NCBI GenBank assembly: GCA_012729535.1
Contig: JAAYCY010000077.1
Coordinates: 1-35,261, forward strand
Reading direction: 5' to 3'
Length of the DNA stretch: 35,261 nucleotides
Source: Methanomicrobiales archaeon
Lineage (GTDB): Archaea > Halobacteriota > Methanomicrobia > Methanomicrobiales > Methanospirillaceae
The position numbers and the translations under genes are program-made. The notes below the pieces were generated by a model. It worked only from the letters and a program-made list of their open reading frames with translations, was not told the origin of the DNA and did no database searches. Below are positions 17,720-34,723 of the stretch, piece after piece. Each line of letters opens with the position of its first letter. Position 1 is the first letter of the stretch.

Positions 17720-19438
17720 TGTCAGTCAGCTGATCACCTAGATTCCCGCCCATTCATAACGAGCCCGGCGGCCTTACCTCCAGCTTATGATACAACCGTT
17801 TCTGTTCATCAAGCATCTCACCAATCCGGAGGGTTCTACCCGGCTGCTTAAAGCACTCAATGACATCGAGTTTATCTAAAAGACCTGGCAGAGTGTATCT
17901 CTTGAGAAGATCGGTAACCTGCATCTGTTTTTTGATATATGACAGGTAGATCAATGCTACAAACTGAACAAATAACTTCCCATCAAGACTTTTTTCCGAC
18001 GAAACCAAATCCATACGCATGTTTAGCCGTTCCTTGAGATTTCCGAATGCCTTTTCCACAACGTCTTTGTTCCAGTAGAGTTCGAGAGCGGTAACCGCAT
18101 CCATAGTCTCATTCGTGATCAGCGAAAAAAACCCGAAATAGCGCTTTGCTTTATCAATCTCTTCTTCTTTTACGGTTGCCTTTGTTCCCCGCTTCGGTGT
18201 TGTTTTGCAGATGAAGTACTTCAGATAGAGTTTTTCATGTTCAGGAACACGACTACCAGTCTCCAGTTCCTGCTTCAATGTATTCAATCTTCGGTCAAAA
18301 GCCATCTTATCTTCAGTTGCTCTCTCAATATTGTAATAATAATGGATGTACAGACGACGGTCTTCCCTGAGAGTCTTTTCTTTATATGGGCGTTCCTGTG
18401 AATAATGCCACACAGTCCGAACAGTTTTGCAGTACAGCCCGTATTTATCGTTGTAATTTTCGAAATCCTGAAGAGAATCATATATGGGATCCAATTCTTT
18501 ACGGATGAAAGCAAGCGACATTTTGACGGAGATAAGAAATTTTACATGATTTCTGTACAAATCGTTGATATTTTCTTCACTATAGAATCCACGGTCCATG
18601 ACCAGTTTTACCTTTGAATACCCGAAAATATTTAAATCATCAAGCAATCGACAAACAGTTTTAGAATCAGGAATATTTCCAGCAACTTTTCTGTAGTAGA
18701 ACGGAAGGTTAGACTCCTCCCCAAAAACTAAGGTAAGATTCAACTGAGGTAATCTGTCATGCTCTTTATTGAAGCCATATTGTACTTGTTTCAATGTTTC
18801 TGAGTAACTGGACAGGGTAGTTGTGTCATAAGCCCAGAATTCATGTTCGCACCGCCGTTTTCCCTGAAGAGAGAAGAACTTCTGTTTGTCTTCTTCAGTT
18901 ATGGTCGAAAATAAATCACTGGCTCGCTCGGAACTGATATTTTTTTCGTATGGATGTTTATGAAGAGTTCCCCATTTGTCGAACCGGTATAGGGGAGCAC
19001 TTTCTTCGAGGATCAGATAGTATGCGATGGACAAGATCTGCTGATATGTGTCAGGGAAACACTGTTTCAGATCCTTTGTGATACTGAGTTTTTCACCAAT
19101 CGCATCAAACAGATATGTAGCCCCAAAAAAGGATCTACTGGCTACCGCTGTACATTTTGGCGCCTGTTCTGCGGGTAATTTCGCTTCCCGCTTCTTTCGG
19201 TTTCTCCCATCAGTCGGGACAATCTCTCCAGTTATCTTATCGACTCGTCCAATCAGGGTCCGCCTGGCACGCGATTGCTGCTTTTCCTTATCCCAGTGTG
19301 ATATGGATTCATAGGCATACGTGATCCCTGAGCGTTTGTCAGTTTGATAAACTATTGCCACCATGATCATTTATCCTCGTTATGCATATATATTAACACG
19401 TAACGATGATAAAGGTTTCGGTGGCCGCATTGCTGACA
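17720..19438 (-). mobile_element. Complete IS1634/IS4-like insertion sequence
   Basis: A single intact transposase gene is enclosed by imperfect inverted repeats. The left end begins TGTCAGTCAGCTGATCACC (17720 onward). The right end, read from outside, begins TGTCAGCAATGCGGCCACC (19438 backward), with about 13 of 21 positions alike, including the first six. The element would be about 1.72 kb, a normal size. A clear target duplication was not found, so the exact ends are provisional. It separates an unidentified flank from a decayed HIT gene. Confidence 0.6.
17754..19370 (-). CDS. DDE transposase, IS1634/IS4 superfamily
   Basis: The 538-residue protein has an IS4-type RNase H catalytic core. 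D182 lies in WAYDTTTLSSY, D259 in LVMDRGFYSEENI, and E439 in YWNKDVVEKAFGNLKERL, which is the Y-(2)-R/K-(3)-E-(6)-K type signature. A long beta-rich insertion between the second Asp and the Glu is typical of this group. It begins with MVAIVYQTDKRSGITYAYES and a basic RNRKKREAK segment for DNA binding. Two ATGs are possible (19370, 19364); GAGG stands at workable distance from both. The frame is intact, so the element may still be active. Confidence 0.9.
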   Translation of the reverse strand: MIMVAIVYQTDKRSGITYAYESISHWDKEKQQSRARRTLIGRVDKITGEIVPTDGRNRKKREAKLPAEQAPKCTAVASRSFFGATYLFDAIGEKLSITKDLKQCFPDTYQQILSIAYYLILEESAPLYRFDKWGTLHKHPYEKNISSERASDLFSTITEEDKQKFFSLQGKRRCEHEFWAYDTTTLSSYSETLKQVQYGFNKEHDRLPQLNLTLVFGEESNLPFYYRKVAGNIPDSKTVCRLLDDLNIFGYSKVKLVMDRGFYSEENINDLYRNHVKFLISVKMSLAFIRKELDPIYDSLQDFENYNDKYGLYCKTVRTVWHYSQERPYKEKTLREDRRLYIHYYYNIERATEDKMAFDRRLNTLKQELETGSRVPEHEKLYLKYFICKTTPKRGTKATVKEEEIDKAKRYFGFFSLITNETMDAVTALELYWNKDVVEKAFGNLKERLNMRMDLVSSEKSLDGKLFVQFVALIYLSYIKKQMQVTDLLKRYTLPGLLDKLDVIECFKQPGRTLRIGEMLDEQKRLYHKLEVRPPGSL

Positions 19439-20681: not shown

Positions 20682-21185
20682 TTATGCGAGAGCGGGTATT
20701 TCGTCTGCCCAGGTCTCGATGGTGGTCATGATCGAATCTGCTTCAAAACTGCTTAGGGCAATTTCCTCACGACCAAACCGGACGTTATACAGTTCTCCGG
20801 TCTCGGTATGACACTTGAGGGTGACACTGAAGTTATCACCTGAACTGTCATGAGACCCGGTTCCACCCATTGAAGATTCTAATGCGGTGTTTGCCAGGAT
20901 GGTTGATACGAGCGTGTCAAATCCTGCGGCGGTGCCGGCCTTGATTGATATCTGACCTACGTTCTTCCCTTCCACGTTTTCATACACAACCTTGCCGGTG
21001 TAATATTCAGAGGTTTTCTGCACAGGAGCGAGTGTTTCCCCACCGGATGTATAAGAGGTGCATTCCCACGGGTTGTCTGTTATGATATCGGTGATGATGG
21101 TGTTCATCGCGGCCTTACTCGCAAATGGTGTTCCGAGTTTTCGCGTTGCTGACCTTACGGTTGACTTAGTTACAAAATCTGCCAT
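20682..21185 (-). CDS. Unknown 167-residue protein, first gene of the cassette
   Basis: This intact paralogue of the gene at 10835-11338 begins MADFVTKSTVRSATRKL; a further in-frame ATG at 21206 lies inside the conserved leader and is rejected. The protein is soluble, without a signal peptide. It has an alpha-helical N-terminal part (KAAMNTIITDIITDNPW), a beta-rich centre (YYTGKVVYENVEGKNVGQIS then IKAGTAAGFDTLVSTILAN), a glycine-rich MGGTGSHDSSGD turn and a C-terminal ADSIMTTIETWADEI helix. The MGGTGSH turn and the helix are the best conserved parts between the copies. No known family matched by eye. Followed closely by the secreted and membrane protein genes. Confidence 0.7.
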   Translation of the reverse strand: MADFVTKSTVRSATRKLGTPFASKAAMNTIITDIITDNPWECTSYTSGGETLAPVQKTSEYYTGKVVYENVEGKNVGQISIKAGTAAGFDTLVSTILANTALESSMGGTGSHDSSGDNFSVTLKCHTETGELYNVRFGREEIALSSFEADSIMTTIETWADEIPALA

Positions 21186-21201
21186 GTTCGATGTTTCCCC
21201 T

Positions 21202-21246
21202 GTCACTGGTGTGTGACAATCAATATTATACGGCCATTTATATAGG
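21202..21246 (-). promoter_or_regulatory. Promoter and leader stem-loop of the three-gene cassette
   Basis: On the minus strand CTATATAAATGG (about 21246-21235) is a TATA box about 50 bases ahead of the ATG. Between them lies GTCAC-ACACCA-GTGAC (21217-21202), followed by AGGGG. The stem and the G-run, but not the loop, are conserved before the amber-interrupted paralogue at 11355-11368. Confidence 0.5.
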
Positions 21247-21369: not shown

Positions 21370-21895
21370 TGAATTCGCCCCTGCGACCGTCACCACCCCA
21401 CCGGCTGTAAAGGACAGCCGTGCCCGCCTCTGCCAAGCCCATAGGCGGGTGCCTCGCCAGCGAACCCTCTAGGGGCACACTCCTCCTCCGCTTTGCTCCG
21501 TCCGGCGTGTGGCTGGCTGCGGGTGGTGGGTCTTCCTCCTGTACTTCTTATGAAAACCGGAAGTAGTGACTCCCTCATTCCCTCCGGTCATTCACTCGGC
21601 CACCACTTCCGGGTGTGAACGCTCGACCCGGGTTCAGACAGACCGTTCCGGCATGACTTCACTCTGGCCTTCGCTCTTCCTTTTTCGCAATGGAACGATC
21701 AATCGGTGTGAATGCTTCGGAGAGAATGTTTCTCCGTCCGCTCCTCGTCGTCATCGTTCCTCTTCCTCCTGTGGTGCTCCTCCGGCACATCATCGCCTCG
21801 CTCCTCCCCTGAAGCCAGGGTAGTACGGTCATAAGTTGACTCTTTCATCCCGCGAACAGGTCGCGGTCTGCCAGGTCAACTGATGCCCTGTACTA
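21370..21895. repeat. Structured GC-rich repeat, copy A (longest)
   Basis: A GC-rich block in an otherwise AT-rich window with no credible gene. Its first 100 bases fold well. GCCCCT/AGGGGC (21377-21382 with 21471-21476) encloses CGGCTGT-aaagg-ACAGCCG (21402-21420) and CCCGCCT/AGGCGGG (21423-21449). Positions 21472-21684 are nearly identical to copy B. They contain CCGGAAGT.GTG paired with CACCACTTCCGG. The last 190 bases match copy C and carry two stem-loops with compensatory differences: 21719-21735 and 21821-21895. Frames read through it (21390-21578, 21566-21823) are repetitive shadows. Confidence 0.7.
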
Positions 21896-21978
21896 TTGTT
21901 ATACCACCCCAAAAGCCGTAATTATTGGTAAAGAGAAAGTAAATGGGAACAAAAGATTTTCAATTATTTAATATCGGG

Positions 21979-22335
21979 TTATTCCCGGTCTGAATAATTA
22001 TCAATTATTTTCCTGATCTTTTCCCGAAGATCCGGTATGTCCCGGGTTATGGTATTCCATATGGTGACCTGTTGCATACCCCAATATTGGTGAATGAGTT
22101 TGTCACGCATTCCGACCATTCGTTTCCATGGAATCTCCGGATGTTCTTCTCGAAAATCTTCAGGAATGGATCGTGTTGCTTCACCGAGTACTAAAAGGTT
22201 GTAAATGATAGCTTCAAGATCCTTATCCGTGCTCACATTTTGTGAACTGTCTTTTTCCTGGTTATACCGGATTATTTTATCTGTAGCATTAAGTATATCT
22301 GTTAAAAAAATACGAAGATCACGTTTTTCAGACAT
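21979..22335 (-). CDS. hepT: HEPN-family RNase toxin HepT
   Basis: The 118-residue all-helical protein (DUF86/HepT) carries the HEPN active site R-x4-H-x-Y: RDKLIHQYWG, with R77, H82 and Y84. The helical segment NLLVLGEATRSIPEDFREEH before it is also typical. It overlaps the upstream nucleotidyltransferase gene by eight bases (22328-22335), so the pair is co-translated. HepT toxins cut RNA and are inactivated when MntA adds AMP to a tyrosine near the active site, probably Tyr84 here. Confidence 0.93.
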   Translation of the reverse strand: MSEKRDLRIFLTDILNATDKIIRYNQEKDSSQNVSTDKDLEAIIYNLLVLGEATRSIPEDFREEHPEIPWKRMVGMRDKLIHQYWGMQQVTIWNTITRDIPDLREKIRKIIDNYSDRE

Positions 22336-22621
22336 ACTGTACTTCCGAGAGGATTTTTGAGCGAAGGAGAGGTTTTATCCCTTCAATATCTACCAGGTCT
22401 ACAGGAGCCTGTAATACCTCTTCCAATTTCTCTTCCAGCTCCAGAAATCCAAAGATACTGGGGGCAGTTTCAAACTCGACAAGGATATCTATATCGCTAT
22501 CCGGTGTTTGTTCTCCACGGATCACTGAACCGAATAAACCAAACCTTCTGATATGATATTGACTGGCTAATTGCGGTTTTATGGTATTGAGTGTTTCAAG
22601 AACCGTCATTGCCTGAGTCAT
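22328..22621 (-). CDS. mntA: MNT-family nucleotidyltransferase antitoxin MntA
   Basis: The 97-residue minimal nucleotidyltransferase has RFGLFGSVIRGEQTPDSDID (residues 26-45). That gives GS (31-32) and the D43-x-D45 metal pair, with a third carboxylate probably in APVDLVDIEG (D74 region). It lies directly upstream of hepT and overlaps it. By analogy with characterised pairs, it AMPylates HepT and neutralises it. Between repeat copies A and C, the pair may be part of the accessory cargo. Confidence 0.92.
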   Translation of the reverse strand: MTQAMTVLETLNTIKPQLASQYHIRRFGLFGSVIRGEQTPDSDIDILVEFETAPSIFGFLELEEKLEEVLQAPVDLVDIEGIKPLLRSKILSEVQYV

Positions 22622-22744
22622 AGTATATCATACGTTGGAATAATCAATAATTATATTTACTTACGATTATGTTTTAGTTTAATTTGAAGGGAAGATATAT
22701 CGGTTCTCATATATATTACTCAACACATAATACAGGGGTGCTCA

Positions 22745-22850
22745 ATGGGTGGAGGCGATATGTCTCTGCAATTCTCCAGAGGGGATGAGGAGATTGCAGA
22801 ATTATTTACTGATATCGGTGTAAAGCGTCATGCTGCCCGGGTCCTGGTCT
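22745..22850 (+). pseudogene. Start of a winged-helix (TrmB-like) regulator cut by repeat C
   Basis: ATG 22745 with AGGGGTG upstream and a TATA box (TCATATATATT, about 22707-22717) starts a good-looking gene: a short leader, then SRGDEEIAELFTDIGVKRHA and ARVLVF. This opening ('..EL...LG....A.VLV.L') is typical of TrmB-like or ArsR-like transcription regulators of methanogens. From about 22845 the sequence turns into repeat C. The open frame continues to 23275 only because the GC-rich repeat lacks stops there. The recognition helix and wing are gone. An intact promoter would still transcribe the repeat. Confidence 0.6.
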
Positions 22851-23115
22851 TCGCTCCCCCTCCCGTAACACGCTTCTACGAATCGGTTGCTCCACTCGGC
22901 GAACATGTTCCGCCGTCTGCTCCTCCTCTTCCGCTCCTCGTTCCTGCGGTGCTCATCGTCGTGCGGTCCTTGTTTCGTCGGTATATTTCTCCTCGCTCGG
23001 TGATGGCGATAGACGGCAATAATTTGACTCTCCCGGCCGGTTCCTCCCTCCGGTCGTCATCTCGTCCGGTAGGTCAATTGATTGCCTTGATAAAGTGGGT
23101 GTTCTCCTCCACTTT
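22845..23115. repeat. Structured GC-rich repeat, copy C
   Basis: The block starts with CTTCGCTCCCCC, matching the end of the A/B shared region, then GTAACACGCTTCTACGAATC (shared with copy B). It continues with the same order of landmarks as copy A: a 17-base stem-loop GGCG...CGCC (22898-22914), CGTCTGCTCCTC, GGTGCTC, CTCGCTC, and a long stem from GGCAAT...TTGACTCT to AGGTCAA...ATTGCC (23015-23086). A last hairpin AAAGTGG/CCACTTT (23092-23115) resembles a terminator stem. The first 350 bases of the full element are absent here. It has replaced most of a regulator gene. Confidence 0.65.
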
Positions 23116-23271
23116 ACGAGAACCAGGACTCCCGGACACCAGGAGAAAATCCGCTGATACGTGTTGCAACCTGGGCTTCTCGGGGCCGCTGGGGCCTCTG
23201 TACTTTATGGACAATCCGCCGAGAACATTTTATTCTCTCCAAAGGTATGCTAGCATGAGAGTTGGACCAAA
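23116..23271. other. Spacer between repeat C and the hydrolase gene
   Basis: No gene is seen. It contains several short inverted repeats (GGGGCCGCTGGGGCC near 23186) and must hold the hydrolase promoter if the gene is expressed on its own. No clear TATA box or ribosome binding site precedes the ATG at 23272. Confidence 0.35.
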
Positions 23272-24324
23272 ATGATACTCATATGGATCGTCTATGCGAT
23301 TGGTATCCTCATCGGATTGTTTGTAATCGAACTCCTCCTGGTTGCACTCCTCCCAGGGTTTGAAGTCCCTCCCCAAACTATTCTGAAAACGCAAAAATCT
23401 TCAGGAGAAGCGCCTGTAACATCGTCATCATCCCGGAAAGATGTGCGATTCTTTGTGAACGGGACCTCTCTCAGTGCCTGGCTGTATCTCCCGGAGCAAC
23501 GCCCCGGTCCATACCCCTGCATCATTATGGGCCATGGGCTGGGTGGCACAAAGGATGCCGGATTGGCGCCTTATGCCCTCCGTTTCCAAGAAGCTGGTTT
23601 TGCTGTTTTCGTATTCGATTACCGGTATTTTGGGGAGAGCGAAGGAACACCAAGACACCTAATTTGGATTCCCTCCCAGTTGGAGGACTGGTCTGCTGCT
23701 CTTACGTACGTCCGTGGGCTCACAGAGATAGATCCAGCCCGGATCGCCCTCTGGGGGACTTCTCTGAGTGGAGGCCATGTGATCGTTTCAGCAGCTCATG
23801 ATCCGACGATAAGATGTGTTTCCGCCCAGTGTCCCGGTATGGATGGCGAGGCTTATGCACAGGAGTCGTTCAAACGGATGGAAATTGTTAATTCGCTCCG
23901 TATGGTTATGCATGGCCAACGGGATATTGTACGCTCCTGGCTTGGTTTATCGCCCCATATGGTCCCTATTGTGGGAAAACCGGGAACGATTGCACTTATG
24001 AATACCCTGGATGCTTATGATGCCTTCAGCAGGCTCATGCCGGAAGGGTATGTGAACGAAGCCTGTGCCCGCATCATTATCCGGGGGGATAAATACCGGC
24101 CGATCAAATATACACCCAAAATCCGATGCCCCGTCCTCCTCCAGATTTGTGATCATGATACCCTTGTCTCCCTTAAATCACTTGAAGAGACTGCCAAGAT
24201 CCTTGGAACTCTTGCAGAAGTGAAACACTACCCTATCGGTCACTTTGATATCTATACTGGTAGCGGATTTGAAAAGGGTGTGCAAGACCAGATTGAATTT
24301 TTCCGGAAGCATCTATCACAGTGA
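23272..24324 (+). CDS. Membrane-anchored alpha/beta hydrolase
   Basis: The 350-residue protein starts with a hydrophobic anchor (residues 2-28, MILIWIVYAIGILIGLFVIE). It then has an alpha/beta-hydrolase fold: oxyanion-side GHGLGG (87-92), FDYRYFGES (115-123), nucleophile S164 in WGTSLSGGH, probable acid D296 in CDHDTLVS, and base H324 in YPIGHFDIY. It resembles the dienelactone hydrolase/'alpha/beta hydrolase with IDPARIALWGTS' group, which includes thioesterase- and lipase-like members. The substrate is unknown. The gene begins 157 bases after repeat C and ends 16 bases before repeat B, so it is enclosed by repeat copies. Confidence 0.88.
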   Translation: MILIWIVYAIGILIGLFVIELLLVALLPGFEVPPQTILKTQKSSGEAPVTSSSSRKDVRFFVNGTSLSAWLYLPEQRPGPYPCIIMGHGLGGTKDAGLAPYALRFQEAGFAVFVFDYRYFGESEGTPRHLIWIPSQLEDWSAALTYVRGLTEIDPARIALWGTSLSGGHVIVSAAHDPTIRCVSAQCPGMDGEAYAQESFKRMEIVNSLRMVMHGQRDIVRSWLGLSPHMVPIVGKPGTIALMNTLDAYDAFSRLMPEGYVNEACARIIIRGDKYRPIKYTPKIRCPVLLQICDHDTLVSLKSLEETAKILGTLAEVKHYPIGHFDIYTGSGFEKGVQDQIEFFRKHLSQ

Positions 24325-24339
24325 GTGTCTACTCCCCCG

Positions 24340-24606
24340 GCCTCTCGGCACTTTGTGGGGGGCACACTCCTCCTCCGCTTTGCTCCGTCCGGCGTGTGGC
24401 TGGCTGCGGTTGGTGGGTCTTCCTCCTGTACTTCTTATGAAAACCGGAAGTCGTGACTCCCTCATTCCCTCCGGTCATTCACTCGGCCACCACTTCCGGG
24501 TGTGAACGCTCGGGTCGGGATTCGGTCAGACCGTCCCGGCATGACTTCACTCTGGCCTTCGCTCTTCCTTTTGTAACACGTTTCTACGAATCGGTTGCTC
24601 CCAAAA
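24340..24606. repeat. Structured GC-rich repeat, copy B (5' part)
   Basis: Positions 24357-24573 repeat 21472-21684 of copy A with only a few differences, including the CCGGAAGTCGTG/CACCACTTCCGG stem. They lead into GTAACACGTTTCTACGAATC and GGTTGCTCC, shared with copy C (22865-22893). The block then breaks off at a run of A (24602-24609), so the 3' stem-loop domain of A and C is missing. Confidence 0.7.
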
Positions 24607-25098: not shown

Positions 25099-27237
25099 AT
25101 GGAGGAACAACAGCTTAACTGGATTGCTAACTTTATATGGGGAATCGCTGATGATGTGCTTCGTGATGTTTATGTCAGGGGCAAATACCGAGATGTAATT
25201 CTCCCTATGACGGTAATCCGCCGTCTGGATGTTCTTCTTGAACCAACTAAAAAAGAAGTCCTGGAGATGAAGGACAGACTTGATAATGCGGGAGTTACTC
25301 ATCAAGATGCTGCTCTTCGTCAGGCAGCAGGGCAGGCCTTTTATAACACATCTCCTTTTACTCTTCGTGATCTAAAGGCAAAAGGAAAACATCAACAACT
25401 GAAACTGGATTTCGAAGCATATCTGGATGGATTTTCTCCAAATGTAGTAGAAATTCTTGAGAAGTTCAAGTTCAGAACCCAGATAGATACCCTTGTTGAG
25501 GCTGATATTCTGGGGAGCCTTATTGAAAAGTTCCTAGATAGTAAAATCAACCTCAGTCCCAACCCGGTATATGAATCGGATGGTTCGATCAAACTTCCCG
25601 GATTGGACAATCATGGGATGGGTACCATTTTTGAAGAACTCATCCGCAAGTTTAACGAAGAAAATAATGAGGAGGCTGGAGAGCACTTTACTCCCCGTGA
25701 TGTTGTCAAACTAATGACAAATCTGATCTTCATGCCGATATCGGATTTGATTGAATCCGGGACTTATCTGGTATATGACGGTGCCTGCGGAACCGGGGGG
25801 ATGCTCACTATTGCTGAAGAAACACTCCTTTCTCTTGCTGATAGTCATCAGAAAGAGATCGCAATTCATCTCTATGGCCAGGAAGTAAACCCGGAGACGT
25901 ACGCAATCTCAAAAGCAGATCTTCTCATTAAGGGTGAGGGGGAACAGGCCGAGAATATGAAATTCGGCTCTACTCTTTCCAGTGATGCGTTTCCTACCCA
26001 GCAATTTGACTTCATGCTCTCCAATCCTCCTTATGGTAAGAGCTGGAAGACTGATCTTGACCGTATGGGCGGTAAAGGAGAGATGAATGATCTCCGGTTT
26101 GTCATTGAACATGACAATGATCCGGAATACTCTCTTATTACCCGGTCCAGTGACGGCCAGCTGATGTTTCTTGTCAATATGATCAGCAAGATGAAACATG
26201 ACAGTCAACTCGGAAGCAGGATCGCTGAAGTCCATAATGGATCCTCGCTCTTTACCGGGGATGCTGGATCTGGTGAAAGCAATATCAGGCGGTGGATCAT
26301 TGAGAATGACTGGCTTGAGGCAATCATCGCTCTCCCCCTGAATATCTTTTACAACACTGGTATCGCGACGTATATCTGGGTGCTTTCGAACAGGAAAGCA
26401 GAACACCGAAAAGGAAAGGTCCAACTCATAGATGCAACTCCCTGGTATCGGTCTCTTCGAAAAAACCTGGGTAAGAAGAATTGTGAACTTTCTCCAGAGG
26501 ATATTGTAAAAATTACAGATCTTTGTATTTCTTTCACCGAGTCTGAACAATCGAAAATTTTTCCAAATGAAGCGTTCGGATACTGGAAGGTCATTGTCGA
26601 ACGTCCACTCCGACTGAAGGTCGATTTGTCAGATGAGTCTCTTAATCGTTTCAGAACGGTATGTGATGAGGCAAAAGATGAAGTTCTTTTTGCCGTCCTT
26701 GAACGAGTCAAAAAGGAGATTGGTTCCGGGATTCATTCTGATTATAATCAGTTAAAAACAACCATTGAGTCGGCAGCATCCCTCTCCGGAGTCAAGATGC
26801 TCGCGAGGCGATGGAAAATTATCGAATCCGGCCTTGCAGAAAAGGATGAAGAGGCATCTCCGGTTATCAAAAAGATCCATAAGCCCGGAAAGATGACTCC
26901 GGACCCGCTCCGGGGATTGTTCTCTCTCACCATTGAAGGAAAACAGGTCGTCGTCGAGTACGAATCGGACAGTGAACTCCGGGATACTGAACAGATCCCT
27001 CTTCTTGAAGAAGGAGGAATAGAGGCTTTTATCAGGCGGGAAGTGCTTCCCCATGTCCCCGATGCCTGGATTGATGAGGATGCGACAAAGATCGGGTATG
27101 AGATCTCCTTTACCCGGTATTTCTATAAACCCCAGCCGCTCCGGAGCCTTGAAGAGATCAAGGCTGATATTCTGGCTCTTGAAAATGAGACGGAAGGGTT
27201 ACTGGACCAGATTCTTGGAATTACCAGGGAGGCTTAA
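25099..27237 (+). CDS. hsdM: Type I restriction-modification methyltransferase subunit
   Basis: The 712-residue HsdM makes N6-methyladenine using S-adenosylmethionine. After an N-terminal helical domain (WIANFIWGIADDVLRDVYVR) come GEHFTPRDVVKLM (195-207), motif I DGACGTGGM (227-235) and catalytic motif IV NPPYGKSW (309-316), then NIFYNTGIATYIWVLSNRK of the target-side domain. It is longer than E. coli HsdM (529 residues). An extra C-terminal part (about 560-712) ends in FTRYFYKPQPLRSLEEIKAD and a coiled helix. This matches the larger HsdM subgroup often found with DUF262 or DUF1016 genes. First gene of the operon; its stop abuts the next start. Confidence 0.95.
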   Translation: MEEQQLNWIANFIWGIADDVLRDVYVRGKYRDVILPMTVIRRLDVLLEPTKKEVLEMKDRLDNAGVTHQDAALRQAAGQAFYNTSPFTLRDLKAKGKHQQLKLDFEAYLDGFSPNVVEILEKFKFRTQIDTLVEADILGSLIEKFLDSKINLSPNPVYESDGSIKLPGLDNHGMGTIFEELIRKFNEENNEEAGEHFTPRDVVKLMTNLIFMPISDLIESGTYLVYDGACGTGGMLTIAEETLLSLADSHQKEIAIHLYGQEVNPETYAISKADLLIKGEGEQAENMKFGSTLSSDAFPTQQFDFMLSNPPYGKSWKTDLDRMGGKGEMNDLRFVIEHDNDPEYSLITRSSDGQLMFLVNMISKMKHDSQLGSRIAEVHNGSSLFTGDAGSGESNIRRWIIENDWLEAIIALPLNIFYNTGIATYIWVLSNRKAEHRKGKVQLIDATPWYRSLRKNLGKKNCELSPEDIVKITDLCISFTESEQSKIFPNEAFGYWKVIVERPLRLKVDLSDESLNRFRTVCDEAKDEVLFAVLERVKKEIGSGIHSDYNQLKTTIESAASLSGVKMLARRWKIIESGLAEKDEEASPVIKKIHKPGKMTPDPLRGLFSLTIEGKQVVVEYESDSELRDTEQIPLLEEGGIEAFIRREVLPHVPDAWIDEDATKIGYEISFTRYFYKPQPLRSLEEIKADILALENETEGLLDQILGITREA

Positions 27238-29034
27238 ATGCCAACCCAACGGTATTCTGTAACCCAGCCACCAATTGAGAATATTTTTACCTGGATTAAA
27301 TCTGGGGACATCGCGATTCCTGAGATACAACGCCCATTTGTATGGAAAGCTACAAAAGTTCGCAATTTCCTTGATTCACTCTATCAGGGATATCCGGTTG
27401 GGTATTTGATAGCCTGGCGTAATCCTGATGTTAAACTGAAGGATGGATCCACTTCTGCCGGAAAACGAATTCTCATCGATGGTCAGCAACGAGTTACTGC
27501 CCTGATGGCTGCCCTCCTTGGTCATGAAGTCATTGACAAGGATTACCAGCGGGTCAGGATAAAAATAGCGTTCCATCCGGTTGATTGCAAATTTGAAGTT
27601 TCTAATCCGGCTATTGAGAAAGATTGTGAATGGATAGCAGATGTTTCAACTCTTTTTGATCCTAATACGAAGATGTTTGAGCTCGTGAATACCTATTGCT
27701 CGGTAAATGAAGGAACTTCCCAGGATGAGATATTCCGATGCCTTGAACTCCTTCGGGGGATTACCAGTAACCAGATCGGCCTTATTGAACTCAATTCTGA
27801 TCTTGATATTGAGACGGTAACAGAGATTTTTATCAGGGTGAATTCAGAAGGTGTTCCCCTCAGCCAGGCCGACTTTGCGATGTCAAAGATAGCGGTGAAT
27901 GAGACCTATGGTGGAAACGCTCTCAGAAAAGCGATTGATTACTTCTGTCATCTAGCTGTTGCTCCTGAATTTTATCCATTAATAGAAAAGCATGACCCAG
28001 TTTTCGTGAAAAGTGAGTTCTTCCCGAAGATGACCTGGCTTCGAAGTGAGAACGACGACCTCTATGATCCTTCCTATACCGATATGCTCCGGGTTGCATA
28101 TACCTCGGAATTCAAACGTGGCAGGCTTGAGGATCTGGTTGCACTTCTTTCGGGGAGGAATTTTGAGACAAAACAGTTTGAGGAGACAATTGTTGAGGAT
28201 TCCTTTGCTCGTCTGAAAAAAGGTATTGTCCGGTTCATGAATGAAACCCACTTCAAGCGGTTTATTATGATTATCCGATCAGCCGGGTTTGTCGATACTT
28301 CCCTGATTGGATCACAGAATACCCTCAATTTTGCCTATATTCTCTATCTCACTCTCCGTGACCAGAAAGTGCCGGATGCTGATATTGAACGGTATGTCCG
28401 TCGCTGGTTTGTGTTTTCGATGCTTACCTCCCGGTATACCGGTTCACCTGAATCAGCCTTTGATTATGATATCAGGCAGATTTACTCGCTTGGTATTGAT
28501 GCCTATTCTGATTCTCTCATCCGGGGTGAGTTATCTGAGGCTTTCTGGGATGCTGCACTCCCCCAGCAGATGACGAGTGCAGTGGTATCTAGTCCTCATT
28601 TCCATGTCTATCTTGCTGCCCAGGTGAAGATGAATGATAAAGGGTTCCTGTCACGGGACATCTCAGTCCGTGAGCTGATTGAGCACCGTTCTGATCTGCA
28701 TCATATTTTCCCCCGTGAATACCTGAAAAAGAGTGGACTGACAAAGGGGCTGTATAACCAGGTTGCGAATTATGTTGTTGCTCAGAGTGAGATTAACATT
28801 GCAATCGGGAAGAAAGAGCCGAAGATCTACTTTAGTGAGATTAAAGAGCAGTGTCAGGGCGGAAAGAAGAAATACGGGAATATCGCCACTCCTGATGAAC
28901 TCACAGAAAATCTCCGTATGAACTGTATTCCGGAGAGTATCATGGGAATGACAGTAGCAGAATATTCGGATTTCCTGAATCAACGGCGTGTTCTCATGGC
29001 CCAGAAGATCAAGGATTACTTTGGGAGTCTGTGA
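27238..29034 (+). CDS. GmrSD-like DUF262 protein inside the type I operon
   Basis: The 598-residue protein has the DUF262 (GmrS-like, ParB/sulfiredoxin fold) N-terminal domain. [10 protein letters not shown] (27-36) and the nucleotide-hydrolysis motif DGQQRVTAL (81-89) are followed by [18 protein letters not shown] (196-213). The C-terminal region carries [11 protein letters not shown] (486-496) with H488-H489, the position of the DUF1524 HNH-type nuclease motif. So both halves of a GmrSD type IV restriction enzyme appear to be fused. GmrSD enzymes cut modified DNA. The gene starts one base after the hsdM stop, without its own promoter. It may add restriction of modified phage DNA, or regulate the type I enzyme. 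Confidence 0.88.
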
Positions 29035-29071
29035 GATGGAAGATCTCATGGAAACATCAGAGGAGTAATGG

Positions 29072-30088
29072 ATGTCAGTTGATCTGAATGAATCATATGG
29101 ATCTCTGCTGACGGGGATCAAGGATCGGGTTAAATCCGCCCAATATGAAGCACTCCGTTCGGTAAATCGTGAACTGGTGATGTTGTACTGGGATATCGGG
29201 CATATGATCGCAGACCTTCAGGGCGAAGATAGCTGGGGAAAGTCAGTGGTTACCCGGTTGTCAGAAGACCTTCGGCAGGAGTTTCCTGGGATGATGGGAT
29301 TTTCTGTTCAAAATCTCTGGTATATGCGACAATTCTATCTCACCTATTCTGCTGATCCAAAACTCCAACCACTGGTTGGAGAAATTAGCTGGACCAAACA
29401 CCTCGCTATTATGGGGAAGTGTCATGACTCAATGCAGCGGGAATTTTATATACGGATGACCCGGAGACATGGCTGGTCAAAGAATATTCTGGTGCACCAG
29501 ATTGAGAATCAGACCTATGAGAAGACACTTCTGAATCAGAATAATTTTGAAGAGACGCTCCCCGCATCGATCTCGAATGAGGCCCGGCTTGCATTAAAGG
29601 ATGAATATACGTTTGACTTTCTTGAACTTGGGGCAGAGCATTCAGAACGTGAACTGGAACGTGCTTTAATCTCCCGTATTGAGGAGTTTCTTCGTGCCAT
29701 GGGTGGATTATTTGCCTTTATGGGGAGTCAGTTCAGGCTTGAAGTAGATGGCCGGGAATTTTTTATCGATCTCCTGCTCTATCACCGCCGACTGAAATGT
29801 CTCGTTGCCCTGGAATTGAAGATTGGAGAGTTTGAACCTGAATATGTCGGGAAGATGCAGTTTTATCTTGCTGCTCTTGATACCCAGATGAGAGAGGACG
29901 GGGAGAACCCGTCAATCGGGATTATCCTGTGTAAAGAAAAGAGCCGGACCATCGTGGAATATGCTCTCCGGGACGCAAGCAGACCGATTGGTGTTGCAAC
30001 CTACCGGATTGTCAGTGAACTTCCCCGGGAGCTGGAAGGGCAGATACCCGGACCTGATGAGATTACCCGGTTGCTGGAGGGGATATAA
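29072..30088 (+). CDS. YhcG/DUF1016-type PD-(D/E)XK nuclease
   Basis: The 338-residue protein has the DUF1016 N-terminal helical domain (RSVNRELVMLYWDIGHMIAD; GFSVQNLWYMRQFYLTY) and a C-terminal PD-(D/E)XK nuclease domain. The acidic residues are D233 in FFIDLLLYHRR and E248-x-K250 in LVALELKIGEFEPEYVGKMQ. Related genes are common inside type I restriction loci, where they often lie next to hsdS. They have been linked to recombination-like or restriction activity. AGAGGAG lies eight bases before the ATG. A ten-codon frame (29036-29068) bridges it to the DUF262 gene. Its stop overlaps the hsdS start by one base. Confidence 0.92.
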   Translation: MSVDLNESYGSLLTGIKDRVKSAQYEALRSVNRELVMLYWDIGHMIADLQGEDSWGKSVVTRLSEDLRQEFPGMMGFSVQNLWYMRQFYLTYSADPKLQPLVGEISWTKHLAIMGKCHDSMQREFYIRMTRRHGWSKNILVHQIENQTYEKTLLNQNNFEETLPASISNEARLALKDEYTFDFLELGAEHSERELERALISRIEEFLRAMGGLFAFMGSQFRLEVDGREFFIDLLLYHRRLKCLVALELKIGEFEPEYVGKMQFYLAALDTQMREDGENPSIGIILCKEKSRTIVEYALRDASRPIGVATYRIVSELPRELEGQIPGPDEITRLLEGI

Positions 30089-31479
30089 TGGAAGGGCTAC
30101 AACCGTATCCGGAGTATAGGGATTCAGGGGTTCCATGGCTTGGGGATATCCCGAGTCATTGGGAGTCATCACGTCTTGATAGATTGTTTACTCTTCGAAA
30201 TGAACCTCCAATTGATGGTGATGAAAGAGTAACAGCGTATATCAATGGACGGGTAACAAATCGAAAGAATATTCCTGGACAAAAAATTAAGGGTGTGATA
30301 AAGGAGGCTGGTTGGCAGAGAATTCATCCAGGTGATTTTGCGATAAGCGGAATGAATGCCCATATGGGTGGAATGGGTGTATCTGATTCTCTGGGTAAAT
30401 GCTCACCGATCTATTTAGTTTTGATTCCTAAACCACAGATCAATGCACATTTCATCTCTCACTTTGTCCGATTTGAAGCAGAAATGGGATTAATTCGTTC
30501 ATTAATCCAGACTATTCGTTTTAATTCTGCAGACTTCAAACGTAATGATTTAAAGTCATTATATGTTTGGTATCCTCCAATTGATGAGCAGAAACAAATT
30601 TGTAAGGTAATTGATTGGATTAATGCTGAAGTAAATAAATTCATCAGCATTAAAAAACATCAAATCTTCCTTTTAAACGAGCAGAAGCAGGCCATCATCC
30701 ACCAGGCAGTCACCCGTGGTCTCGACCCGTCCGTCCCAATGAAGCCATCCGGGATTGAATGGCTTGGGGAGATTCCAGAGCATTGGGATATTATTCCAAT
30801 AAAGCGAGTCCTTAAAAGATTAATTGATACTGAGCATAAAACCGCTCCAGCGATAGATGGCGGCAAATATCCAGTAATTCGAACCTCAAATATTAAAAAT
30901 GGCAAATTAGTTTTTGATGATATTTATTATACCGATGAAAAAGGATATTCAGAATGGACGAGACGCGGTAAGCCATTACCTGGAGAATTGCTTTTCACTC
31001 GTGAAGCACCAGCTGGGGAAGCTTGTATTATTCCAGATGGAATTGATCTTTGTATGGGACAGAGAGTGGTTCTACTCGGTGTAGATTCACAAAAGATTAA
31101 TTCTGAATTTCTTCTTTTATCACTTAATAGCGGGGTTTCAAAAGATTATATAAAAAATAAGTCTGTTGGATCTACTGTCCCTCATTTCAATATGTCTGAC
31201 ATAGCAACTATTCCAATATTGGTACCCCCATTATCGGAACAGTTGAAAATTGTTCAAGAAATTGGATTGAAAACACAGAGTTTTGATACAATTATCAATA
31301 AGACCAATAATGAGGTTTTGATAATTGCAGAATATCGAACCCGCCTCATCACCGACGTCGTCACCGGAAAACTCGACGTTCGCTCAATCGCTGCCACCCT
31401 CCCTGACGTAGAAAATATTCCCCTCGAAATACCCACAGAAGAAGAACCGGAGGAGGAATTCACCGATGAAGAAGAGTAA
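30088..31479 (+). CDS. hsdS: Type I restriction specificity subunit
   Basis: The 463-residue HsdS has two target-recognition domains. Each starts with the same block: YRDSGVPWLGDIPSHWE (10-26) and PSGIEWLGEIPEHWD (about 221-235). Each ends in a conserved helix (PPIDEQKQICKVIDWINAEV; PPLSEQLKIVQEI). These helices form the spacer that sets the gap between the two half-sites. The recognition domains are more AT-rich than the conserved parts, as expected when specificity domains are exchanged. The C-terminus ends in an acidic tail (EEEPEEEFTDEEE). The sequence recognised cannot be predicted. Co-translated with the upstream nuclease. Confidence 0.95.
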   Translation: MEGLQPYPEYRDSGVPWLGDIPSHWESSRLDRLFTLRNEPPIDGDERVTAYINGRVTNRKNIPGQKIKGVIKEAGWQRIHPGDFAISGMNAHMGGMGVSDSLGKCSPIYLVLIPKPQINAHFISHFVRFEAEMGLIRSLIQTIRFNSADFKRNDLKSLYVWYPPIDEQKQICKVIDWINAEVNKFISIKKHQIFLLNEQKQAIIHQAVTRGLDPSVPMKPSGIEWLGEIPEHWDIIPIKRVLKRLIDTEHKTAPAIDGGKYPVIRTSNIKNGKLVFDDIYYTDEKGYSEWTRRGKPLPGELLFTREAPAGEACIIPDGIDLCMGQRVVLLGVDSQKINSEFLLLSLNSGVSKDYIKNKSVGSTVPHFNMSDIATIPILVPPLSEQLKIVQEIGLKTQSFDTIINKTNNEVLIIAEYRTRLITDVVTGKLDVRSIAATLPDVENIPLEIPTEEEPEEEFTDEEE

Positions 31480-31783
31480 ACCTGAAGGGGCATTACAGTG
31501 ATACAACTGGCTACCCCCATTACTTTCATCGATCACCTCCAGGGAGAGACCCTAAAGAACTATCTTAGCAAAAGAACAGCAAAACCCTATCAAAGAAATA
31601 CTGATAATTCTCCCCAAAAACTAAAAATATCAAATCTTGCTTTGCTTAGGATTTCTCTTCTTCATTATCCTAATCAAAGCACTCACGATCCCTTAACAAA
31701 AGAAAATCTATAACTACCCTTAAAACAAGATTTCTGACATATTGGTTTTGATTACCCAAACAATAGACACATGAGTTTATTAC
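31480..31783. other. Gap between hsdS and hsdR
   Basis: 304 bases break the otherwise tight operon. A 71-codon frame starting with GTG at 31498 (ends 31713) is possible but has no clear ribosome binding site or family. The last 60 bases are AT-rich and may give hsdR its own promoter. I see no hairpin strong enough to call a terminator. Confidence 0.4.
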
Positions 31784-34723
31784 ATGACCCCAACCGATAC
31801 CTCAGAAAAAGAACTCGAACGGATCATCACCGACTCTCTCATCACTAAATCCGGATATATCCAGGGAAAACCCGAGGAATTCGATCGGGACCATGCAGTT
31901 GATCTCCCTAAACTTCAGGAATTCCTTCAAAGAACTCAGCCAAAGATCTTTGAACAACTCGGTCTGGAAACAGATGGCCCGAAACGACTGCAATTTTTGG
32001 CACGGCTCCAAGGAGAAATAGCGAAAAAAGGAGTCATCGAAGTTCTTCGCAGAGGGGTAAAACATGGACCGGCTTCAGTCTCCCTCTTTTATGGAACCCC
32101 GACTCCAGGGAATACCAGAGCGGCAGAACTCTTTTCATCAAACATATTCAGTGTAACCCGTCAACTCCAGTACAGTAAAGACGAAACAAAGCGTGCTCTG
32201 GATCTCTGTATCTTCATCAACGGCCTCCCAATTGCTACCTTTGAACTCAAGAACCGCCTGACAAAACAGACTGTTGATGATGCCATCCAGCAGTACAAAC
32301 GTGACCGTGATCCTCGTGAACTCCTTTTTCAGTTCGGCAGATGTGTAGTCCACTTTGCGGTTGATGACCAGGAAGTCAGCATGTGTACCTGGCTCAAAGG
32401 GAGTGAATCATGGTTTTTACCGTTCAATAAAGGATTCAATGACGGGGCAGGAAATCCTCCGAATCCGAATGGAATAAAGACCGATTATCTCTGGAAAGAA
32501 ACCCTGACAAAAACAGGTCTTACCGATATCCTTGAAAATTATGCCCAGTTGGTTGAAGAGAAGGATCAAAGAACTGGCAGACAGAAAAAAAGCCAGATAT
32601 TCCCCCGGTATCATCAGTTAGCAGTTGTCCGTTCTCTCCTTGCTCATGCCTCACGATACGGAGTTGGCCATAGGTATTTGATTCAGCACTCTGCCGGGAG
32701 TGGGAAGAGTAACTCAATTGCATGGCTCGCTCACCAACTTATCGGGCTTGATATGGAAGGGAAACCCATCTTTGACTCTGTCTTTGTAGTAACCGACCGG
32801 AGAGTTCTGGATAAACAGATCCGTGATACCATCAAACAATTTGCCCAGGTGTCAGCCATCATCGGAGCGGTTACGGAAGGATCTGAACAACTCAGAAAGT
32901 TCATCGAGGATGGAAAGAAGATCATCATCACCACGGTTCAGAAGTTCCCGTTCATTCTTGATGAAATCGGATCTGCTCACCGGGGGAGAAAATTCGCTCT
33001 TATAATCGATGAAGCCCACTCAAGCCAGGGTGGTCGGACTACTGCAAAGATGCACATGGCTCTTTCTGAAGATGGTTCCGGGGAAGATGATGAAACCACG
33101 GAAGATAAGATCAATACCATCATGGAGTCCAGAAAACTCCTGAAAAATGCCAGTTACTTTGCATTCACCGCCACTCCCAAGAATAAGACCCTGGAACTCT
33201 TCGGTGAACCATATCAGAATGGTGAATCTGTCAGCCACCGTGCATTTCATAGTTATACCATGAAACAAGCCATCGACGAGGGATTCATCCTGGATGTTCT
33301 CAAGACCTACACACCAGTTCAGAGTTACTATCAGCTCATGAAGACCGTCCCCGATGATCCACTCTTTGATAAAAAGAAGGCGAAGAAAAAACTCCGGCGG
33401 TATGTTGAATCTCATGAGCATGCCATCCGGTTAAAATCAGAGATCATGGTTGACCATTTCCATGAACAGGTTATCCAACGGAAAAAGATCGGAGGGAAAG
33501 CCCGTGCAATGGTGGTAACGAGTGGGATCGAGCGGGCCATTCAATACTATCATGCCATATCTGCATACCTCGCTGATGAAAAATACCCTTACAAGGCAAT
33601 TGTTGCATTTTCTGGTGAACATGAATATGGTAATGAAAAAGTAACCGAAGCAACCCTGAACGGATTTCCCAGTATCCAGATTCCTGATAAAGTTATAGAA
33701 GATCCATACCGGTTCTTGGTTGTCGCAGACAAATTCCAGACCGGATATGATGAACCGCTTCTTCATACCATGTACGTGGATAAGATCCTTACCGACATTA
33801 AAGCGGTACAGACTTTATCACGTCTGAACAGGTCACATCCACAGAAACATGATACATTTGTGCTTGATTTTGTCAACGACGTGGATACCATCAAGGAAGC
33901 TTTTGAGACCTATTACCGGACTACTGTTCTCTGTGATGAGACCGACCCAAATAAATTGCATGACCTGAAGAGTGATCTCGATACATATCAGGTTTATACA
34001 CCGGACCGGATAGAAAACCTTGTTGAACTCTATATTAACGGAGCAGACCGGGATAAACTTGACCCGTACCTGGATATCTGTGTTGTTGATTATAACGCTC
34101 TTGATGAAGATAGCCAGGTTGATTTCAAAGGAAAAGCAAAAACATTCCTCCGGACCTACAGTTTTCTTTCCGCTATCCTTCCGTATACGAATGCCGAGTG
34201 GGAAAAACTCTCAATATTCCTCAACTTTTTGACTCCAAAACTTCCGGCACCAAAAGAAGAAGATCTATCGAAAGGTATCCTCGAAGCAATCGATATGGAG
34301 AGTTACCGGGTTGAAATTCAGGCATCCCTCTCAATTGATCTTAAAGATGAGGATTCAGAAATATACCCAGTCCCGACATCCGGCGGAGGTCATGTCAGAG
34401 AGCCGGAACTGGATTACCTAAGTAATATTGTCAGAGCATTCAACGATCTCTTTGGAAGTATCGAATGGAAGGATGGGGATAAAATCCGGAAAGTAATTAC
34501 AGAAGAGATTCCCCAGAAAGTCAAAGAGGATAAAGCGTATCAGAATGCAATCAAGCATTCAGATAAACAAAACGCCCGGATTGAGCATGATAAAGCACTT
34601 CTCCGGGTGATTACTGCTATGCTTAGTGATCATACCGAGCTCTTTAAGCAGTTTAGCGATAATCCGTCGTTCAAGAAATGGCTTCAGGATTCGATATTTG
34701 CAATGACGTATGAGGGGGAGTGA
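31784..34723 (+). CDS. hsdR: Type I restriction endonuclease/translocase subunit
   Basis: The 979-residue HsdR cleaves DNA after ATP-driven translocation. The N-terminal PD-(D/E)XK nuclease shows D140 (RALDLCIFING) and E154-x-K156 (ATFELKNRL). The SF2 helicase motor follows. Q-motif region FPRYHQ is at 273-278, Walker A HSAGSGKSNS at 302-311, DEAH box at 409-412 (LIIDEAHSSQGG), motif III FAFTATPKNKT, and motif VI QTLSRLNRSHP. A helical C-terminal domain (VKEDKAYQNAIKHSDKQNAR...) binds the methylase core. The length fits the family. No strong ribosome binding site precedes the ATG. All motifs are intact, so the enzyme should be active together with HsdM and HsdS. Confidence 0.95.
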   Translation: MTPTDTSEKELERIITDSLITKSGYIQGKPEEFDRDHAVDLPKLQEFLQRTQPKIFEQLGLETDGPKRLQFLARLQGEIAKKGVIEVLRRGVKHGPASVSLFYGTPTPGNTRAAELFSSNIFSVTRQLQYSKDETKRALDLCIFINGLPIATFELKNRLTKQTVDDAIQQYKRDRDPRELLFQFGRCVVHFAVDDQEVSMCTWLKGSESWFLPFNKGFNDGAGNPPNPNGIKTDYLWKETLTKTGLTDILENYAQLVEEKDQRTGRQKKSQIFPRYHQLAVVRSLLAHASRYGVGHRYLIQHSAGSGKSNSIAWLAHQLIGLDMEGKPIFDSVFVVTDRRVLDKQIRDTIKQFAQVSAIIGAVTEGSEQLRKFIEDGKKIIITTVQKFPFILDEIGSAHRGRKFALIIDEAHSSQGGRTTAKMHMALSEDGSGEDDETTEDKINTIMESRKLLKNASYFAFTATPKNKTLELFGEPYQNGESVSHRAFHSYTMKQAIDEGFILDVLKTYTPVQSYYQLMKTVPDDPLFDKKKAKKKLRRYVESHEHAIRLKSEIMVDHFHEQVIQRKKIGGKARAMVVTSGIERAIQYYHAISAYLADEKYPYKAIVAFSGEHEYGNEKVTEATLNGFPSIQIPDKVIEDPYRFLVVADKFQTGYDEPLLHTMYVDKILTDIKAVQTLSRLNRSHPQKHDTFVLDFVNDVDTIKEAFETYYRTTVLCDETDPNKLHDLKSDLDTYQVYTPDRIENLVELYINGADRDKLDPYLDICVVDYNALDEDSQVDFKGKAKTFLRTYSFLSAILPYTNAEWEKLSIFLNFLTPKLPAPKEEDLSKGILEAIDMESYRVEIQASLSIDLKDEDSEIYPVPTSGGGHVREPELDYLSNIVRAFNDLFGSIEWKDGDKIRKVITEEIPQKVKEDKAYQNAIKHSDKQNARIEHDKALLRVITAMLSDHTELFKQFSDNPSFKKWLQDSIFAMTYEGE

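Follow-up and report, generated by a model that had tools for sequence, protein, structure and literature searches.

Covarying modules of noncoding repeats as probable ends of small mobile elements in Methanospirillum and sister genera

Introduction

The 35,261-nt stretch of DNA that we analysed from a Methanomicrobiales archaeon (as a whole called the window) contains three related GC-rich noncoding repeats, with a G+C content of 56-60% vs 42% for the window. A preliminary description, made from the sequence, took them for mosaics of one structured element and offered three guesses: a large noncoding RNA, a hairpin-ended non-autonomous element, or a guide or reverse-transcription-type RNA. 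This raises the question of what the repeats are and why their folds are preserved. The answer that we prefer, and to which we give a probability of about 0.55, is that they are terminal modules of small mobile elements, integrated in the genomes of Methanospirillum and its sister genera, with ends that would be recognised as folds.

Results and discussion

Three copies of one repeat in the window

Compared side by side, the copies showed that the family is defined on the window's minus strand and contains two recurring folding modules: D3, the last 80 nt, with a sharp terminus (GGTCGCAGGGGCG), and D5 (GGTTGACC...GAGTCAAC). Three covariance models were used, R1 for D3, R2 as an improved D3 model and R3 for the inner hairpin, D5. 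All three copies of the preliminary description (A, C and B) were recovered, with the edge of A corrected from 21370 to 21376 (Table 1). Copy A comprises one R2 and one R3 match, and its boundary was set where the likeness between family members stops. Its D3 consists of a CCCGCC/GGCGGG stem enclosing a conserved loop (TATGGGCTTGGCAGA), a variable hairpin and a conserved end (GGTGACGGTCGCAGGGGCG), and its D5 is a long hairpin, GGGCAT..AGTTGACCT...AGAGTCAACT..ATGACC.

Table 1. Repeat copies, their modules and adjoining genes in the window
Feature	Position	Strand	Description and basis
Copy A	21376-21895	-	Near full-length terminal region, D5...middle...D3; outer end at 21376
D3 of copy A	21376-21453	-	R1 96.7 bits, R2 65.8 bits; covariation count
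Conserved terminus GACGGTCGCAGGGGCG	21376-21391	-	Past the terminus, sequence is unlike between most copies
Middle block of A common to B	21472-21684	-	214 nt, 96%; B side 24359-24572
D5 of copy A	21823-21889	-	R3 78.4 bits; arm-permutation test
Toxin-antitoxin pair (HepT, nucleotidyltransferase) lying between A and C	21979-22621	-	Pfam; synteny with L009
Regulator gene, 5' part cut by copy C	22683-22851	+	89% alike to the paralogue along 170 nt; the likeness ends at the junction
Copy C	22845-23115	-	D5 and part of the middle region; without D3
D5 of copy C	23011-23087	-	R3 63.3 bits; outer stem GGCAAT/ATTGCC
Copy B	24340-24606	-	Middle block only; without D5 and without D3 (R2 and R3 searches)

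The sharing reported between A and B was confirmed, as was that between B and C, which amounts to 50 nt at 86% (22844-22893 and 24552-24601) and includes GTAACACG.TTCTACGAATC and GGTTGCTCC. A 3' domain had been described as common to A and C; a shared 66-nt piece at 76% and the D5 fold in both copies bear out the common domain but not its label, since on the minus strand, which gives the best reading of the family, this domain is the inner one, D5. The 17-nt stem-loops GGAGAGAATGTTTCTCC (21719-21735 in A) and GGCGAACATGTTCCGCC (22898-22914 in C) were found as described, and the TAGTAC/GTACTA outer arms of A, like those of C, were confirmed by reading.

No conserved coding gene was found in the repeats, in agreement with the preliminary description; the reading frame at 22745-23275 is a truncated regulator gene that runs into copy C, with the junction at about 22851. 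An intact paralogue of this regulator is present in the same genome (G000:C74, L008). Since copy C starts where the similarity to the regulator ends, it arose through insertion or recombination. The HepT/nucleotidyltransferase pair also adjoins a related copy in another genome (G078), and copy B adjoins a type I restriction island. A, B and C have identical orientation and no family cargo lies between them, and we therefore read them as worn remnants (solo or decayed ends) of small mobile elements of an apparently undescribed family.

Distribution of the D3 and D5 modules

The R2 model matched D3 in 28 of the 232 Methanomicrobiales genomes, in eight genera of one family, and R3 matched D5 in 21 of the 232. 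Strong matches of both modules are confined to that one family; R1 also matched across part of Methanomicrobiales, where the weak matches are doubtful. Among 393 genomes of the phylum, R3 found D5 in members of this family only. A nucleotide search returned copies from the same genus only, and records of M. stamsii Pt1 and of a Methanospirillum MAG carry the repeat. With copy A as query, phage and plasmid collections gave no match; an exact 17-mer match in one unrelated viral contig was rejected, as it lies in apparently coding sequence. A search of Rfam (4227 models) at the gathering threshold gave only tRNAs, located away from the repeats, and the best sub-threshold matches were chance-like. 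No named RNA family thus matches the repeat; the preliminary description, too, had known of no named family for it.

Selection on the fold

The preliminary description had proposed selection on a base-paired fold and had named covariation among a larger set of copies as its own test. In larger copy sets the proposal received strong support. The cleaner test was arm permutation of the D5 outer stem, for which the arms of 14 copies, related to each other, were taken straight from the sequence: 111 of 140 positions pair, vs 72.5 +/- 6.2 with the right arms dealt randomly, and 0 of 20,000 random deals reached 111 pairs. In alignments fitted to the models (one of which, A6, holds some doubtful weak matches), 92.9% of the cells were paired for D3 and 93.9% for D5, and double changes numbered 51 vs 15.7 in shuffles for D3 and 66 vs 20.0 for D5, a level reached in 0 of 500 shuffles in either case; in slid controls the pairing went down to 30-60%. 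We disregarded substitution counts made with RNAalifold on copy pairs, since the way they are constructed biases them. The letters of the D3 stem vary between copies (CCCGCC/GGCGGG, CCCTTCA/TGAAGGG, CCTCCC/GGGAGG) around a conserved loop (TATGGGYTTGGCAGA). Pairing is kept while the letters change, indicating that the fold itself matters and is under selection.

Consensus folding, compared with shuffled columns, was significant on both strands; of five sets, three gave the outward strand the better z-score. On the oriented strand, G.U (or G.T) exceeded A.C by 31 to 7 in D5 and by 6 to 2 in D3. The z-scores and the G.U excess indicate that one strand is favoured as the functional one, which would be expected of RNA and of single-stranded DNA alike. 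Among the loops, GNA was somewhat over-represented and GNRA somewhat under-represented, a weak trend that we count towards the reading as mobile-element ends and in which the GNA enrichment was not significant with 3-bp stems.

RNA or DNA

The covariation, the strand bias of the z-score and the preference for G.U over A.C could thus come from an outward structured noncoding RNA that each end encodes (in the window, on its minus strand) and that travels with the element and acts as RNA, either like the large RNAs borne by phages and plasmids or as a scaffold with a 3' end running into the flank. To the extent that RNA gives the tolerance of G.U/G.T and the strand bias equally well, they count against a reading of the fold as DNA. 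The conserved 3' terminus followed by variable sequence also fits an RNA, as do TATA-like stretches that lie between D5 and the inward-facing HTH gene.

The arrangement of the modules speaks for a different reading. In g1, D5 and D3 point in the same direction, outward, whereas in g10 and g17 D5 is reversed relative to D3, with an orientation that is clear from the scores, so no single RNA spans both modules there. Despite this reversal, both modules hold their place around the cargo, which suggests that they are independent, as expected for DNA sites. Moreover, copies with D3 only (L016, L116 at 4355, L124 and L140 at 1477) and with D5 only (C, L003, L009, L010 and L014) are common; together with the reversal, they make a continuous D5-D3 RNA unlikely as the conserved unit. 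DNA-end modules, or two separate RNAs, fit better than one continuous RNA. The lack of GNRA enrichment and of an Rfam match also counts against an RNA role, which we regard as possible but unlikely. The first of the three guesses, one large noncoding RNA, was accordingly not borne out, the flip of D5 in two other genera being the argument against it.

The repeats resemble GOLLD, ROOL and HEARO in being long, structured, GC-rich noncoding sequences on a mobile element, but differ from them in lacking an Rfam match, in lying at both element ends and in having D5 and D3 that can lie on opposite strands. For a guide RNA of the TnpB/IscB kind (HEARO and relatives), no RuvC-type nuclease domain was found among the proteins scanned around the copies. 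The guess of a guide or reverse-transcription RNA found nothing in its favour either, as the scanned neighbouring and cargo proteins included no Cas protein, no TnpB/IscB and no reverse transcriptase.

Complete elements and their cargo

The window's own genome has two complete elements of about 6-6.5 kb. One, at 1217-7200 on contig C78, has 544-nt inverted ends that are 93% alike (1215-1757 and 7202-6661), with D5 inside and D3 at the outermost end. A second complete element, on contig C51, has 113-nt identical inverted ends (L219, 1326-1438 and 7879-7767), D5 and D3 in the same mirror order and a cargo homologous to that of C78. Besides short uncharacterised proteins, both encode DUF6573 (PF20213), a small protein with HTH_17 and an ATPase of the RecF/SMC type that belongs to a phage family (phrog_1499). 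In C78, C51 and C45, and also in a relative, one end is closely followed on its inner side by a second HTH_17 gene, which faces inward. Altogether, seven inverted pairs enclose DUF6573 and HTH_17 (L146, L219, L140, L220, L221, L222 and L223), five of them, all inverted D5 pairs, in other genera: G020 (two loci), G023, G027 and G098. Of the three initial guesses, the hairpin-ended non-autonomous element therefore came closest, since mobile elements carry the modules inverted at their two ends.

Family scans and a scan of the C78 genes recognised no transposase inside the elements; tyrosine recombinases occur near some copies, in no constant place. A fold search with DUF6573 found no solved relative, and viral contigs contain DUF6573 relatives without the element ends. 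In the literature searched, no paper dealt with such ends in Methanospirillum or named DUF6573.

Boundaries and mobility

In 34 ends the outer boundary stays the same, and most flanks beyond it are unlike each other. Some copies of M. stamsii (L015, L016 and L076) and of g10 and g17 share a flank, and these may be duplicated loci or have a longer end. Neither C78 nor C51 shows a target duplication, and searches with the moeA flank and with the restriction gene flank gave no empty site, the flanks being too divergent or unique; mobility of the element is thus what we infer from the remaining evidence. At both complete elements of this genome (L146, 542-1195; L219, 415-1320), related proteins with RHH and HTH domains (RHH-XRE) end 7-21 nt from the outer terminus. 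The RHH-XRE gene was considered as a target of both complete elements and rejected, having no homologue elsewhere in the order and being present in this genome only.

The repeats could also be ordinary repetitive intergenic sequence, shaped into mosaics by recombination, with hairpins acting as terminators or recombination hot spots and with no mobile element involved. The many fragments and mosaic joins, the siting in variable toxin-antitoxin and restriction islands and the indirect nature of the case for mobility agree with this. It would leave unexplained the sharp boundary at 34 ends, the mirrored pairs around the same cargo at seven loci and the long specific stems that covary around conserved loops, and we consider it very improbable.

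Comparison with known elements

As in DNA transposons and MITEs with long terminal inverted repeats, inverted ends flank one cargo, the ends are sharp while the flanks differ, and many copies are solo or non-autonomous. Unlike in those, and in particular unlike in DDE transposons, no transposase was recognised and no target duplication was seen, and each end is a covarying fold of about 300-600 nt in which two independent modules are combined. The methanogen casposons are likewise integrated archaeal elements with terminal inverted repeats; here, in contrast, neither Cas1 nor a family B polymerase (PolB) was present among the C78 genes scanned, with which the C51 cargo is homologous, and no target duplication was seen.

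In Streptomyces telomeres, the 3' overhangs form tightly packed hairpins, bound by an HTH-containing protein (PMC4513846). The repeats share with such telomeres the long terminal inverted repeats, the hairpins crowded into the last few hundred bases of the better-folding strand, which has its 3' end at the terminus, and the HTH proteins; a phage-type ATPase (phrog_1499) is also present. The elements might on this basis be integrated linear plasmids or virus satellites whose telomere-like ends form 3' strand hairpins for end replication. We find this improbable, as no polymerase or terminal protein was found (family scans recognised no Tpg/Tap-like terminal or telomere-associated protein), the complete copies are integrated, with chromosomal-type flanking genes, and the orientation of D5 varies. 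Streptomyces telomeres are nevertheless the closest working analogy for the ends, a likeness for which we claim neither sequence relation nor membership.

Proposed organisation of the elements

The paired inverted copies around the same cargo, the sharp outer boundary and the covariation support the reading of the repeats as ends of mobile elements. A complete element begins with an outer D3 bearing the terminus, followed by a purine-rich middle, an inner D5, a cargo of short genes including DUF6573 and the excisionase-like HTH_17, and then the modules in inverted form. The unit would move, and its ends would be recognised folded, most likely as single-stranded DNA, while it is excised or inserted or while its ends are replicated; the HTH proteins of the element may be what binds them. 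Cutting and joining would fall to an enzyme that escaped our scans, or to one supplied by the host or another element. The copies in the window would be solo or decayed ends that stayed behind in an island of toxin-antitoxin and restriction genes and were shuffled as copies recombined with each other. What counts against this reading is that no transposase or integrase lies consistently inside, that neither a target duplication nor an empty site was found, that inverted copies at L111 and L138 enclose other or rearranged cargo without DUF6573, and that many copies are single.

A bolder proposal, which we put forward tentatively and with low confidence, is that these are archaeal mobile elements of a new class, with ends that act as folded single strands, be it telomere-like DNA or outward RNA. 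Their mover would be an unrecognised enzyme among the short genes, with the DUF6573 or HTH_17 proteins part of the machinery.

The elements make up a compact and testable family of probable methanogen mobile elements with no recognised recombinase, and the covariance models find their ends. Should the folded ends prove to be the substrate, they would be an archaeal addition to the few systems that move or replicate via structured single strands. The reading as mobile-element ends would also account for the mosaic noncoding islands beside toxin-antitoxin and restriction genes in these genomes.

Neighbouring genes and other loci

The type I restriction-modification island of the window (25099-34723) has added genes (PDC-S02, HEC-05-like) between its subunits. 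On the other side, a DDE_Tnp_1 transposase gene lies at 17754-19370 (minus strand), with PIN-domain toxin-like genes further left. An orphan protein of 174 aa, with no Pfam, PHROG or NCBIfam match, is encoded at 20682-21206 (minus strand). The idea that the repeat is an RNA leader of this gene was dropped, because the orphan family occurs in 193 of the 232 Methanomicrobiales genomes, often in many copies and mostly without the repeat. In M. stamsii and in this genome, the start of some orphan-family copies lies about 170-190 nt away from a D3 end; one copy, L005, is cut short at a fragment of D3.

At L111 (G006:C9, 3950-11061), four end-module copies enclose HicAB-like and RelE-like toxin-antitoxin genes and a methyltransferase, in a layout that resembles the window. 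Ribonuclease III is unusual in archaea, and a gene with a ribonuclease III domain (L116, 11454-11963, G004:C132) lies between the inverted end and the cargo of one element. Finally, a contig of 7,968 nt (L133, G000:C46) carries identical 93-nt direct repeats at both ends, and is possibly circular or the product of an assembly overlap.
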